A stretch of 64,000 nt of DNA, taken from Elusimicrobiales bacterium. GTDB lineage: Bacteria > Elusimicrobiota > Elusimicrobia > Elusimicrobiales > UBA9959. Below, one piece after another: positions 4,268 through 20,876 of the stretch; position 1 is the first letter of the stretch, and every line of letters starts with the position of its first letter. The notes beneath the pieces were generated by a model. That model was given only the letters and a program-made list of their open reading frames with translations, was not told where the DNA came from and did not search any database. The translations under genes and the position numbers were made by a program. The stretch lies in NCBI GenBank assembly GCA_028713125.1, contig JAQTOU010000003.1:1-64000 (forward strand). The letters run 5' to 3'.

Positions 4268-5137
4268 CTACTTTTTTAAAATCTGTGTCACTCTTTCGAT
4301 ATCGTCCAGCGAGAAGTAGTGTATGATTATTTTACCATTCTCCGGGCCGGGCCCGGGGCAGACCTCCACCTTGGTGCCCAGGGTTTTCTCGAGCGAGGAT
4401 TCAAGGGCCACGACCTCGGGCGTGCGGCGCGAGCCCGCGCGGGGCGCCCTCGGCGCCCGGGGCTTGTCGGCGTGGAAGCCCTGGGCGAAGCTCTCCACGT
4501 CGCGCACGGAAAGCTTCTCCGTCATTATCCGCTGGTAATATTCGCGGCGCTTGGCCGAATCGGGAATGGAGATGAGCGCGCGGGCATGCCCTTCGCTGAT
4601 GGTCCCCGCCTGTATCCCCTGGCGGATATCCTCATCTAGCTCCAGGAGGCGCAGGGTGTTGGACACCGCGCCGCGGGATTTATGCACCTGCTTGGCGATC
4701 TCGGACTGGGAGACGCTGAATTTATCCATCAGCTGTTTATAGGCCAGCGCCGTGTCGATCGCGTTAAGGTCCTCGCGCTGGATATTCTCCATCAGCGCGA
4801 GCCCAAGCTTCTGCTCCTCGTTAAGATTTTTCTTAACGATAGCGTCGATCTCGGCCAGGCCGGCCAGCTTCGCGGCGCGCAAGCGGCGCTCGCCGGCGAT
4901 CAGTTCGTAGGAATCTTCGTTCGCATCCTTCCACACGGAAATGGGCTGCAAAAGCCCCCTGGTCTTTATTGAATCCGACAGCTCCGCCAGGGCGTTTTCG
5001 TCAAAATTTCTGCGCGGCTGATGCCGGTTAGGGCGCACTTTACCGATAGGGATCCTCTGCACGATATCCCCGGAAATATCATTGTCCTGTACCTTGCTGA
5101 TAAGCGAATCTATCCCGCGTCCTAAAGCCTTTCTCAT
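4268..5137 (-). CDS. parB: Chromosome-partitioning protein ParB
   Basis: ParB is the parS-binding CTPase clamp that loads on the origin region and works with ParA in segregation. The 289-residue product shows the family order: an N-terminal ParA-interacting start (MRKALGRGIDSLI), the ParB/Srx CTP-binding domain with GERRLRAAK (82-90) and ENIQREDLN (117-125), a helix-turn-helix (SQSEIAKQVHKSRGAVSN, about 143-160) and a C-terminal dimerisation region after a basic PRAPRAPRAGSRR linker. An AAGGAG site precedes the ATG. It follows parA by about 88 bases, and three candidate parS sites lie within 1.3 kb. Confidence 0.95.
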   Translation of the reverse strand: MRKALGRGIDSLISKVQDNDISGDIVQRIPIGKVRPNRHQPRRNFDENALAELSDSIKTRGLLQPISVWKDANEDSYELIAGERRLRAAKLAGLAEIDAIVKKNLNEEQKLGLALMENIQREDLNAIDTALAYKQLMDKFSVSQSEIAKQVHKSRGAVSNTLRLLELDEDIRQGIQAGTISEGHARALISIPDSAKRREYYQRIMTEKLSVRDVESFAQGFHADKPRAPRAPRAGSRRTPEVVALESSLEKTLGTKVEVCPGPGPENGKIIIHYFSLDDIERVTQILKK

Positions 5138-5225: not shown

Positions 5226-6068
5226 TCAGCCACCGAGATCGTATTCCAGTTCTCCGGCTTCTTCGGTTACGTACAGGTCGGATTTTTTATGCACTGCAGT
5301 GTCTACCCCGCGCCGCTCAAGGAACTCCAGAGTCAGCTCTTTGTAAGCAAGGGCGCCGCGGGAACTAGGGTCGTAAATAAAGATCGGCTGGCCGAAACTG
5401 GGAGCCTCGGCCAAGCGCACATTTCGCGGGATGACCGTCTTGTAAAGCTTGTCGCCGTAATACTTGCCTATTTCCCCCCTCACCTGGTTGGCGAGATTTA
5501 TCCGGGAATCGTACATAGTTATAACGCCGCCATCTATCTTCAGACCGGGATTAAGAGCCTGGCGGATCTTCTCTACGGTATTCATAAAATAGGCAAGCCC
5601 TTCCATCGCGTAGAATTCGCACTGGACGGGAGTAAGGACGGAATTTGAAGCGTTAAGAGCGTTAATAGTAAGCAGCCCCAAGGAAGGAGGGCAGTCTATT
5701 ATAATGAACTTATACATTCCTTTAACTTTCTCGAGAGAGCGCTTAAGGACGGATTCTCTGGAGAATTCGCTTACAAGCTCTATCTCCGCGCCGGCAAGGT
5801 TATGGCTGGTAGGAATAATATCCAGCCACTCGACGGAGGTCTGGTGTATAGCGGACTCGGCCGGGGCTTTGCCGCAGAGCACGTCGTAAATATTTTTATT
5901 ATTTTTAGTAATGTCCACGCCGAGACCGGAGGTGGCATTGCTTTGGGGATCGAAGTCTATAAGGAGCGTCTCATAATCGAACGCCGCCAGGGCCACAGCT
6001 AGATTAATAGATGTGGTGGTCTTGCCCACGCCGCCTTTCTGGTTCGCTATCGCCACTATTTCAGCCAT
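5226..6068 (-). CDS. parA: Chromosome-partitioning ATPase ParA/Soj
   Basis: ParA is the deviant Walker ATPase that forms DNA-bound gradients moving ParB-parS complexes. The 280-residue product starts MAEIVAIANQ and carries the deviant Walker A KGGVGKTT (11-18), the IDFDPQSN switch/Walker A' region (37-44) and IIDCPPSLGLLT (Walker B). I start it at 6068, where GGAG lies 5 bases upstream. A longer frame opens at a GTG at 6119, but that codon lies inside a parS palindrome and has no ribosome site. It is co-transcribed with parB downstream. Confidence 0.95.
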   Translation of the reverse strand: MAEIVAIANQKGGVGKTTTSINLAVALAAFDYETLLIDFDPQSNATSGLGVDITKNNKNIYDVLCGKAPAESAIHQTSVEWLDIIPTSHNLAGAEIELVSEFSRESVLKRSLEKVKGMYKFIIIDCPPSLGLLTINALNASNSVLTPVQCEFYAMEGLAYFMNTVEKIRQALNPGLKIDGGVITMYDSRINLANQVRGEIGKYYGDKLYKTVIPRNVRLAEAPSFGQPIFIYDPSSRGALAYKELTLEFLERRGVDTAVHKKSDLYVTEEAGELEYDLGG

Positions 6069-6111
6069 ATATGCTCCAAACCCTTGTTTTATATACCTAT
6101 TCGGTCTCTTA

Positions 6112-6127
6112 GTTTTCACGTGAAAAC
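6112..6127. promoter_or_regulatory. parS site 1
   Basis: Perfect 16-base palindrome GTTTTCACGTGAAAAC, close to the Bacillus parS core TGTTTCACGTGAAACA. It lies in the 5' leader of parA, downstream of the mapped promoter. Confidence 0.85.
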
Positions 6128-6261: not shown

Positions 6262-6277
6262 GTTTCCACGTGAAAAC
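6262..6277. promoter_or_regulatory. parS site 2
   Basis: GTTTCCACGTGAAAAC, one base away from the perfect palindrome of sites 1 and 3, lying upstream of the parAB promoter. ParB usually tolerates single changes at this position, so it may be a weaker site. Confidence 0.75.
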
Positions 6278-6363: not shown

Positions 6364-6379
6364 GTTTTCACGTGAAAAC
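6364..6379. promoter_or_regulatory. parS site 3
   Basis: Perfect palindrome GTTTTCACGTGAAAAC, identical to site 1 and 252 bases from it. It sits between the terminator and the 3' end of the SHOCT-like gene. Confidence 0.85.
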
Positions 6380-18175: not shown

Positions 18176-19216
18176 CTACCTGCGCGGCTGCCAATTCTTC
18201 TTTTCCAGGTATTCAAGTATCTCTTTTACCAGGAAAGGCCCTTCATAAACGAGGCCGGAATAGACCTGCACCAGGTCCGCGCCCAAATTCAGTTTTTCAA
18301 GGGCCGTCGCCCCGTCGAAGATCCCGCCGGAACCGATAAGAGGAACTTTTCCTTTTACCAGCGCCGCCGTTTTAGAGAGCATCGCGTTGGATAAAGCGCG
18401 TAGAGGCTTCCCGCTCAAGCCTCCCTCGTAGGACTGCCAATAAGCCGGGACCGAGGAGCGGTTCACCGTGGTATTAGTCGCGATCAGGCCGAAATTTTTC
18501 TCCAGGGCTAGGGCGGCGGCGGACTCAAGGTCGGCATCTTCCAGGTCCGGTGCGATCTTAACGAAGAAAGGTTTTACTTTTTTCTGCCCGGAAGCGAAAT
18601 CGAGCATCGGCTCCACCAGGCGCTTTAATTTATCCGCGCCGTGCAGGGAACGGAGCTGGAGCGTGTTAGGGGAACTTATATTCACCGCGAAATAATCCCC
18701 GTAGTCGTACATTATCTTCAAGGTCTCCAGGTAGTTCTTCGGGGCTTCATCTATTGAGCAGTCTGCGTTCTTTCCAACGCTTATCCCTACCGGCACCGGG
18801 AGCGGGAGCAGGCGCTCGAGCGAGCGGGCCGCGTCGAAAGCGCCGGCATTATTAAAACCCATTCGGTTTATTATGGCGTGATCGTCTCGCAGGCGGAACA
18901 GGCGCGGCTTCGGGTTTCCTGGCTGCGGCCGGAGCGTTACCGTGCCTAATTCCAGAAAGCCGAAGCCCAGCCCGGCCAGGAAGCGCGCGGCCTCGCAGTT
19001 CTTGTCGAAGCCGGCGGCCAGCCCTACCGGATTGTGAAATTTCAAGCCAGCTACCGTTAGAGGGAAATCTTTGGCCTTTGTAAGCAGCCTTACCATGGAA
19101 TTCAAGAATTCCACGCGCTGCGCCGCGCGGGCCGTTTTTATTACCGCGTCATGCACTACTTCAGGATTGAGGTTGAAGAGAAGCTGGCGGACGAATTTCC
19201 TGTATAAGAAGCCCAT
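18176..19216 (-). CDS. pyrD: Dihydroorotate dehydrogenase (quinone, class 2)
   Basis: PyrD oxidises dihydroorotate to orotate, passing electrons to membrane quinone. The 346-residue product has the class 2 N-terminal amphipathic extension (MGFLYRKFVRQLLFNLNPEVVHDA), NPVGLAAGFDKN, INRMGFNN, the catalytic-serine motif VNISSPNT, the FVKIAPDL lysine and the FMN-phosphate loop IGSGGIFDG. Class 2 membership implies a quinone-based respiratory chain. It reads away from the AT-rich 19217-19589 spacer. No ribosome site is obvious before the ATG. Confidence 0.95.
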   Translation of the reverse strand: MGFLYRKFVRQLLFNLNPEVVHDAVIKTARAAQRVEFLNSMVRLLTKAKDFPLTVAGLKFHNPVGLAAGFDKNCEAARFLAGLGFGFLELGTVTLRPQPGNPKPRLFRLRDDHAIINRMGFNNAGAFDAARSLERLLPLPVPVGISVGKNADCSIDEAPKNYLETLKIMYDYGDYFAVNISSPNTLQLRSLHGADKLKRLVEPMLDFASGQKKVKPFFVKIAPDLEDADLESAAALALEKNFGLIATNTTVNRSSVPAYWQSYEGGLSGKPLRALSNAMLSKTAALVKGKVPLIGSGGIFDGATALEKLNLGADLVQVYSGLVYEGPFLVKEILEYLEKKNWQPRR

Positions 19217-19589
19217 AGTTGTGTATTTATTTTAGCAATAATGAGGTCTGGAAAAAGCGTCTCTTCCTGATATCTTTTAATCGTACCGGCTTATCCGGTC
19301 TTTAATAGAAGGAAAAGCCCTTTTTTAAAAAGGTTCTCTTCCGGGTTGCTAGAGTAGTATCTAATTTCATCATCATAGTCATCTATAAGAGGGGCTGTTA
19401 ATAATGTGAATCAGGCTCAAATCATAAGAAGAAGTTATCAACAGCCCATCCGAATTCACTGACAGTCCTGACAAAACGGAAGAGTACTGACATGGTTTGC
19501 GGGGTTATTAACAGATTTAAAGATCATTAAAAAAGACAGTTTAAAGCGGAGAGGTAGCCCACTATTAGTAGAATTTATTATAAAGCGGT
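19217..19589. other. AT-rich gene-free region with DnaA-box-like sites
   Basis: This 373-base spacer is visibly AT-rich against high-GC surroundings and holds no credible frame. It contains three 9-mers of form TTAT(T/C)AACA: 19396-19404 (minus), 19435-19443 (plus) and 19505-19513 (plus), each one or two changes from TTATCCACA. Two of them form the arms of an inverted repeat. A short hairpin ACCGG-cttat-CCGGT lies near 19286. It may be a DnaA-responsive region, an origin-like element or only a promoter region for pyrD. Confidence 0.4.
19392..19447. repeat. 13-base inverted repeat, 30-base loop
   Basis: GGGCTGTTAATAA (19392-19404) and TTATCAACAGCCC (19435-19447) are inverted copies with one mismatch. 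Each arm contains a DnaA-box-like sequence, the two facing each other. Confidence 0.6.
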
Positions 19590-20876
19590 TTAATTTTCCC
19601 GCAGGCAGGAGCAGCGAAAAATAATATTACCGGCAGCTATGGTCGCCGCGGGCCAGCCGCGCAAAGGTCTCCCCGAGAAAGGGGAATTTGAGGATTTCGA
19701 CACAAAGACTTGAGGGACGCGCTTTAGCCGCCGCGGGTCCAAGAGGGAAAGGTCCGCGTCGTAGCCGGCGGCGATGCGGCCTTTTTTCTTGAGGCCGAGA
19801 ACTCGCGCGGGGTTCAGGCAAAGAAGTTCCGCCAGGCGCTTTTTATTAATTATTTTTTTAAGGACCAGCTCCGTCACGCAGAGCGGCGCCAGGGTTTCAA
19901 GGCCGATAATGCCGAAAGGAGAGCCCTTGAAACCATTGGCTTTGAGCCTGGCTTCATGAGGGGCGTGGTCGGTAGCTATAAGGTCTATGGTTCCGTCCGC
20001 CAGGGCGGCGAGCACGGCGCGGCGGTCCGCGGGGGAGCGAAGCGGCGGCTTCATTTTATAATTAGCATCGTCTTTTTTAATATCCGCGTCGGAAAGCGTG
20101 AAATAATGGGGACAGGTTTCACCGGTAACCGGCCAACCGGCTTCTTTTGCCGCGCGCAGGGCGGCGACGGAAGAAGCGAGGCTCAGATGCTGCAGGTGAA
20201 TGGGCCCGGCCGAGGAGGCGGCGAGAATATCCGCCAGCACGGCCAGGAGCTCCGCTTCCGGCGGGATGCCCGGCAAATTAAGCCTGCGCGCCGCGGGGCC
20301 GGCGTTAATAACGCCGCCGCCTGTCAGGGAAAAATCCTCGGGGTGGTCCATCAGCGGCAGACGGAGCGCGGCGGCCTTTTTAAGAAGCTCGGAGAGAAGG
20401 CCGCGCGGCAGGCAGGAGCCGTCGTCCGTAAATGCGGCCGCGCCGGCTTTTTTAAGAGCGGCGAGGTTAGAGACGGTCTTTCCGGAACGGCCGGCGGTGG
20501 CGGCGGCGGAAAAATAAAAATTGACTGGGAGCTTCGCGGCGCGGCGGCGGTATTTCTTCACCAGCGCGGCCGTGGCCATCGCCGGGAAAGTGTTAGGCAT
20601 CAGGAGGGCGGAGGTCACGCCTCCGGAGGCGGCGGAGAGCGCGGCGCTTTCCAGCGTTTCAGCCGCCTCGGCTCCGGGCTCCCTGGCGTGCACATGGACG
20701 TCTATAAAACCCGGGAAGATCCATAAGCCGGCGGCGTCCAGGACTTCACAGGAGGGAGGGGGCCTGATCGCCCGGGCAAGGCGGCTTATCCGGCCGCCCT
20801 CTATAAGAATATCGACGGAGGCCTCTCCCGAGACGGGGTCAATTGCCAGGCCGTTTTTTATCAGTAATTTTTTCAT
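19590..20876 (-). CDS. pyrC: Dihydroorotase
   Basis: PyrC cyclises carbamoyl aspartate to dihydroorotate. The 428-residue product is a type I-like dihydroorotase: metal ligands DVHVHAREPG (H61, H63), AFTDDGS (aspartate in place of a carboxylated lysine, as in this class), MDHPED, HLQHLS, and IATDHAPH near residue 300. A cysteine-rich short C-terminus (IIFRCSCLREN) is unusual. It is the last gene of a four-gene minus-strand unit; its first 38 bases overlap the end of the upstream membrane-protein gene. Confidence 0.93.
   Translation of the reverse strand: MKKLLIKNGLAIDPVSGEASVDILIEGGRISRLARAIRPPPSCEVLDAAGLWIFPGFIDVHVHAREPGAEAAETLESAALSAASGGVTSALLMPNTFPAMATAALVKKYRRRAAKLPVNFYFSAAATAGRSGKTVSNLAALKKAGAAAFTDDGSCLPRGLLSELLKKAAALRLPLMDHPEDFSLTGGGVINAGPAARRLNLPGIPPEAELLAVLADILAASSAGPIHLQHLSLASSVAALRAAKEAGWPVTGETCPHYFTLSDADIKKDDANYKMKPPLRSPADRRAVLAALADGTIDLIATDHAPHEARLKANGFKGSPFGIIGLETLAPLCVTELVLKKIINKKRLAELLCLNPARVLGLKKKGRIAAGYDADLSLLDPRRLKRVPQVFVSKSSNSPFSGRPLRGWPAATIAAGNIIFRCSCLREN

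Follow-up and report, generated by a model that had tools for sequence, protein, structure and literature searches.

The spacer between pyrC and pyrD in an uncultured Elusimicrobiales bacterium (genome G000; assembly GCA_028713125.1, 3.48 Mb in 39 contigs) carries an AT-rich element that almost certainly derives from the spacer between dnaA and dnaN, and that overall is best explained, with somewhat better than even confidence, as a second, displaced copy of the chromosomal origin core. The element lies in the window analyzed here, that is, the first 64 kb of the 541-kb contig C26 (JAQTOU010000003.1); dnaA (71526-72881), followed by dnaN, lies on the same contig, 52 kb from the element. A preliminary description of the window had noted three DnaA-box-like 9-mers in this spacer, two of them as arms of an inverted repeat, and proposed an origin-like or DnaA-regulated element, or a lineage-specific DnaA box.

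The comparison set comprised 32 genomes of the same genus, with a dnaA locus in 30 (none for G006 and G019); G026 is the sister genome of G000, and both belong to a five-genome clade with G012, G027, and G021. When positions 19340-19530 were compared with the 32 genomes by BLAST, 21 gave matches (expectation value [E] ≤ 0.001). In G000 and G026 the match was the element itself, and in 19 others it was the spacer that directly follows dnaA; G021 gave one additional match at another place. The dnaA-dnaN spacer of G000 itself was absent from these matches. A sequence model (R1) was built from 28 dnaA-dnaN spacers, leaving out the spacers of G000 and G026 and the further copy in G021 (contig C65). 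It gave one strong match (>80 bits) in each source genome, as it must, and two each in G000, G026, and G021, corresponding to the resident spacer and a displaced copy. Weak matches (13-18 bits) were found in G003 (C117, C58), G021 (C20), and G012 (C12). The pattern shared by the 30 resident spacers is a TGTCAG pair, CTGTTNATAACTT, a short loop, and NACTATNAACAG, followed by the dnaN ribosome site and start; on the minus strand, the window copy runs through the same elements in order, as far as TCTTATAGATGACTATGATGATGAAA. The parts of the element are as follows.

19359-19478, minus strand: displaced dnaA-dnaN spacer copy (origin core) in the dnaA-to-dnaN direction; R1 83.9 bits, E 1.9e-23.
19365-19391, minus strand: relic of the dnaN ribosome site and start codon, TCTTATAGATGACTATGATGATGAAA, with AGAGGA of dnaN changed to AGATGA.
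19396-19404, minus strand: DnaA-box-like TTATTAACA, forming one arm of the inverted repeat; orientation and spacing are alike in G026.
19435-19443, plus strand: DnaA-box-like TTATCAACA, the other arm; same orientation and spacing in G026.
19459-19473, minus strand: paired TGTCAG motifs (19459-19464 and 19468-19473, coordinates by eye), common to dnaA-dnaN spacers.
19505-19513, plus strand: third box, TTATTAACA, outside the R1 match; TTATCAACA in G026.

A further TGTCAG motif was seen by eye at 19487-19492. The change in the ribosome site separates residents from copies, with AGAGGA in 30/30 resident spacers and AGATGA in 3/3 displaced copies. Judging from the alignment (CTGTTAATAACC versus CCGTTAATAACC), the third box probably derives from the last codons of dnaA. 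The dnaA tail relic in the window copy is itself weak: 5 of 500 shuffles scored as high with G021 and G012 as donors, and 32, 52, and 88 with G022, G003, and G000. A dnaN relic past the first codons was unsupported (70-145 of 500 shuffles as high, five donors).

The three TTATNAACA 9-mers (19396-19513, two head-to-head) were located as the preliminary description had claimed, and they exceed chance: the spacer alone holds 3 against a mean of 0.023, a number that 0 of 5,000 dinucleotide shuffles reached. The excess of the 9-mer, whose lack had been named as evidence against the proposal, is likewise real, with 6 in the whole window (0.56 expected; 0 of 100 shuffles reached 6) and 91 in the G000 genome versus 62 for a reversed control pattern. 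No other TTATNAACA triple within 200 bases was seen by eye in the genome-wide listing for G000. The cluster is thus beyond chance, and its boxes are noncanonical. Two of them lie in an inverted repeat (19389-19404 and 19435-19450; 16-nucleotide arms, 88% complementary, 30 nucleotides between), of which a 13-base version (19392-19404 and 19435-19447) has one mismatch, counted by eye. The AT content of 20-mers is 55-80% across most of the displaced core. Elsewhere in G000, three TTATCCACA occur within 550 bases (C25:1185-1727), and TTATCAACA, TTATTCACA, and TTATTAACA occur within 200 bases (C37:7691-7890).

Exact TTATNAACA is present in 23 of the 30 dnaA-dnaN spacers of the genus, and 29 of the 30 genomes, G000 included, have a pair of canonical TTATCCACA boxes overlapping the start of dnaA (one box in G023); the ancestral origin thus looks bipartite. 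Because the canonical pair persists at the dnaA start, an A at position 6 characterizes the boxes of this spacer and is not a replacement of the canonical box. The idea of a lineage-specific DnaA box is thus partly right.

A cruciform or RNA hairpin was considered for the inverted repeat. No Rfam family matched within the window, and no consensus fold was found for 28 resident spacers. The arms pair in 81.1% of alignment cells, and their covariation score exceeds those of all 500 shuffles; this covariation is real but modest and would also fit paired DnaA sites, and the hairpin was rejected. A plasmid or phage origin gained no support, as blastn (E 0.01) gave no match to the element among 72,556 plasmid and 50,697 phage records.

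The spacer and its neighbors are as follows.

18176-19216, minus strand: pyrD, dihydroorotate dehydrogenase (PF01180).
19217-19589, no strand: pyrC-pyrD spacer holding the displaced copy; 373 bases, 37% GC.
19590-20876, minus strand: pyrC-like amidohydrolase (PF01979); named dihydroorotase by context.

A pyrD locus was found in 29 of the 32 genomes, with pyrC directly upstream in 28; among these, only G000 and G026 have the copy. The pyrC-pyrD gap measures 13-129 bases in the 26 genomes without an insert versus 373 in G000 and 395 in G026, and the element was therefore inserted. Barring loss in other lineages, the insertion would date to the ancestor shared by G000 and G026, because the two are sisters in the DnaA tree (support 100/99, within the five-genome clade at 95/92) and the sole carriers of the long gap. 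The exception among the pyrD loci is G027 (C67:21021-22052), in which pyrC does not precede pyrD and the same junction is broken by another rearrangement. G000 also has a second full-length pyrD (C36:2437-3468), 80% identical to that of the window, which is either a paralogue or lies on a contig that strayed in from a related species.

Counting the further copy in G021, displaced copies occur in three of the five clade genomes and in none of the 25 others with a dnaA locus.

G021:C65:19026-19151 (L215 9026-9151): further displaced dnaA-dnaN spacer copy that has relics of the dnaA tail and the dnaN head.

The alignment shows both relics plainly (no shuffle test). This copy sits in a conserved mutS-dusB-macB block, which in G000 lies ~12 kb from pyrC-pyrD, between pyrD and dnaA, and its orientation relative to the block is the same as that of the window copy. 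The resident spacer of G021 is intact (3/42 near-invariant columns deviating). As to one or two events, the DnaA tree needs two changes; the copies in G021 and the window reflect either one event with later movement or two events.

Selection has very probably maintained the displaced copy in G000 and G026, because its core is more conserved than fourfold sites and its boxes are in register. Over the R1-defined core, 106/120 positions are identical between the two genomes, compared with 475/632 at the fourfold sites of three genes (pyrD, pyrC, dnaA; binomial P value of 2.6e-4). A hand-picked core gave 98/105 (P value of 1.2e-6); its ends were chosen after seeing the alignment, and so the model-defined core was used. 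The three boxes keep their orientation and spacing (70 and 39 bases) in G026, and the flanks of the core have diverged, with insertions and deletions.

Spacers between dnaA and dnaN are classic sites of oriC (PMC4285127, PMC6669920). Within this order, too, the dnaA-dnaN spacer is likely the oriC. R1 matched it in 4 of 5 genomes representing the family's other genera and in 10 of the 24 genomes from a second family. Most of these matches were weak (E 1.8e-5 to 0.03), and at E up to 0.03 the same 29 genomes gave 12 further matches at other places. The genome G045, also of this order, is a single contig (1,643,562 bases) that we take to be Elusimicrobium minutum; its dnaA begins at position 577, and GC skew was positive in 10/10 sampled stretches of the first half and negative in 10/10 of the second, placing dnaA at the switch; the R1 match in its dnaA-dnaN spacer is weak (E 0.008). 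The preliminary description had named a canonical oriC beside dnaA, together with a skew minimum elsewhere, as a point against an origin at pyrC-pyrD, and an oriC-type spacer does exist there.

The resident spacers of G000 and G026 have also changed. In a leave-one-out comparison at 42-45 near-invariant columns of the 30 resident spacers, G000 deviated at 8 columns and G026 at 9, the most of all 30 genomes, compared with 0-7 in the other 28; the displaced copies of the two genomes deviated at 4 each. Among the resident changes are TGTCAG to TGTCGG and to AGTTAA, with the strong box lost.

These results show the following course of events. In the ancestor of G000 and G026, a stretch spanning the dnaA-dnaN spacer and reaching into the dnaN start was copied in inverted orientation to the pyrC-pyrD junction; the copied core has been kept since, and the resident spacer has changed at conserved positions, the strong DnaA box included. 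For the function of the copy, we propose that DnaA, the same protein that serves the dnaA region, would bind the head-to-head TTATNAACA pair and the third box, form a complex on the adjoining AT-rich DNA, open that DNA, and load the helicase. Replication would then start at the pyrC-pyrD element, instead of or besides the dnaA site. We put the chance that the copy works as an active origin, moved or second, at about even. The more specific proposal of an origin move caught in the act, in which initiation shifted to the copy 52 kb away, the resident was freed to change, and G021 made its own copy or inherited and moved one, is tentative and the less probable of the two.

Several observations weigh against a displaced origin core at pyrC-pyrD. 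The whole pyrC-pyrD spacer is only 287/368 identical between G000 and G026. No DnaA-trio run was seen in the element (by eye only). The resident spacers of G000 and G026 are 116/126 identical, like those of other close pairs, and resident and displaced copies score alike with R1 (82.1 versus 83.9 bits in G000 and 81.7 versus 80.5 in G026). By summed column score, the residents of eight other genomes fall below that of G000, and exact TTATNAACA is likewise absent from the resident spacers of five other genomes. G000 has kept both canonical boxes intact at the start of dnaA. Decay of the resident, in its simple form, was rejected given the 116/126 identity. Because the resident is not rotting, a completed move is disfavored, and either two working sites or a division of labor would be compatible with a constrained resident. 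A duty toward the dnaN translation start may be enough to explain the constraint.

Compositional skew and chromosome partitioning sites do not help the case. The cumulative GC-skew minimum of the contig falls at 15,881, with a secondary low near 80 kb (the genome being in 39 contigs), and, judged by eye, 6 of 10 element-free relatives (G028, G009, G024, G014, G017, and G020) have a like minimum near pyrD. Between pyrD and dnaA, GC skew was 0.0105 (G000) and 0.0122 (G026), compared with −0.0125 to 0.0194 in ten relatives. GC skew thus fails to single out the element and was rejected as proof of an origin at 19.4 kb, since element-free relatives look alike. Orientation-corrected fourfold TA skew over the same interval was −0.046 (G000) and −0.031 (G026), against a mean of −0.086 (standard deviation, 0.034) in ten relatives, a shift in the direction expected after an origin shift but within error (standard errors of 0.03-0.04). 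The partitioning genes and sites are as follows.

4268-5137: parB, open reading frame read by eye, no family search.
5226-6119: parA, open reading frame read by eye, no family search.
6113-6126, 6263-6276, and 6365-6378: three parS-like palindromes (TTTTCACGTGAAAA type) at the start of the parA-parB pair.

A palindrome scan of the window found 4 matches where 1.43 were expected (at least 4 in 3 of 100 shuffles), the fourth, at 20116, lying outside the group. The parAB genes and three parS sites are therefore where the preliminary description had put them, 13 kb away (gene names by eye). Their closeness was rejected as evidence, since a parS-like site lies 5-24 kb left of pyrD in 5 of 10 element-free relatives. 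Of the original proposal, the origin-like or DnaA-regulated element is supported, through homology to the dnaA-dnaN spacer of the genus; its argument from parS carries no weight, and neither does GC skew, which it had named as a check.

Other roles for a copied origin core have to be weighed. The E. coli loci datA and DARS control DnaA by titrating it or resetting its nucleotide state, and like them the element is a noncoding DnaA-box cluster away from oriC; to our knowledge, datA and DARS are not copies of the origin itself. A control site of this kind, with replication still starting beside dnaA, is a possible but rather unlikely account. It would suit three conserved boxes without a proven unwinding region, a resident spacer still under constraint beside intact canonical boxes at dnaA, and the coexistence in G021 of an intact resident with a displaced copy. 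It sits less well with a copy that retains, besides its boxes, the paired TGTCAG motifs, the segment between the boxes, and the stretch that was once the start of dnaN, and with the loss of conserved resident positions only in the lineage that has the pyrC-pyrD copy.

A DnaA-responsive promoter or operator for pyrD (or pyrC), tying pyrimidine synthesis to the initiator, seems improbable: the element is directly upstream of pyrD, and a sigma-70-like match overlaps its first box on the minus strand, but promoter-like matches number 2 against 1.0 expected, pyrD has its own conserved TGCTARAAT element just before the start in genus alignments, and the displaced copy of G021 is not beside a pyr gene. 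We give equally little credence to a nonfunctional duplicate surviving by chance, which the diverged flanks would allow; the excess of core over fourfold identity and the three boxes in register already disfavor it.

As a displaced origin core, the element can be compared with known systems. Its donor resembles the Bacillus subtilis incC/oriC type (the basal unwinding system) in lying between dnaA and dnaN with DnaA-box-like sites, and it resembles bipartite origins (PMC4285127, PMC6669920) in having boxes upstream of dnaA too. Unlike the B. subtilis type, the copy stands alone, 52 kb from dnaA, lacking the upstream TTATCCACA pair and, by eye, a DnaA-trio run. The oriC of E. coli lies about 44 kb from dnaA, a distance comparable to that found here. 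In both cases an origin-type element occupies another gene context (for E. coli, PMC4285127); unlike in E. coli, the donor sequence can still be recognized next to dnaA, and only two sister genomes of a single genus have the copy. Putative double origins in DoriC (Gao 2015, PMC4403523) likewise place two origin-like regions on one bacterial chromosome. Those were found by skew switches plus box counts or by large duplications, whereas here the evidence consists of an insertion that can be dated and of sequence homology with the origin spacer still resident beside dnaA. The literature on Elusimicrobia oriC, origin relocation, and duplicate or multiple origins, as far as its text was accessible, held no report of this element.

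The origin has moved away from dnaA in some lineages, and intermediate stages can rarely be observed. In the present case a single genus holds the donor, the copy, the insertion point, and related genomes that lack the copy, so that a two-origin state of a bacterial chromosome becomes testable by read depth. The analysis also defines an order-level oriC element for a phylum on which little cell-cycle work was found in the literature accessible to us. If the displaced core is an origin, a chromosome in this clade would, at least temporarily, have a pair of homologous DnaA origins.
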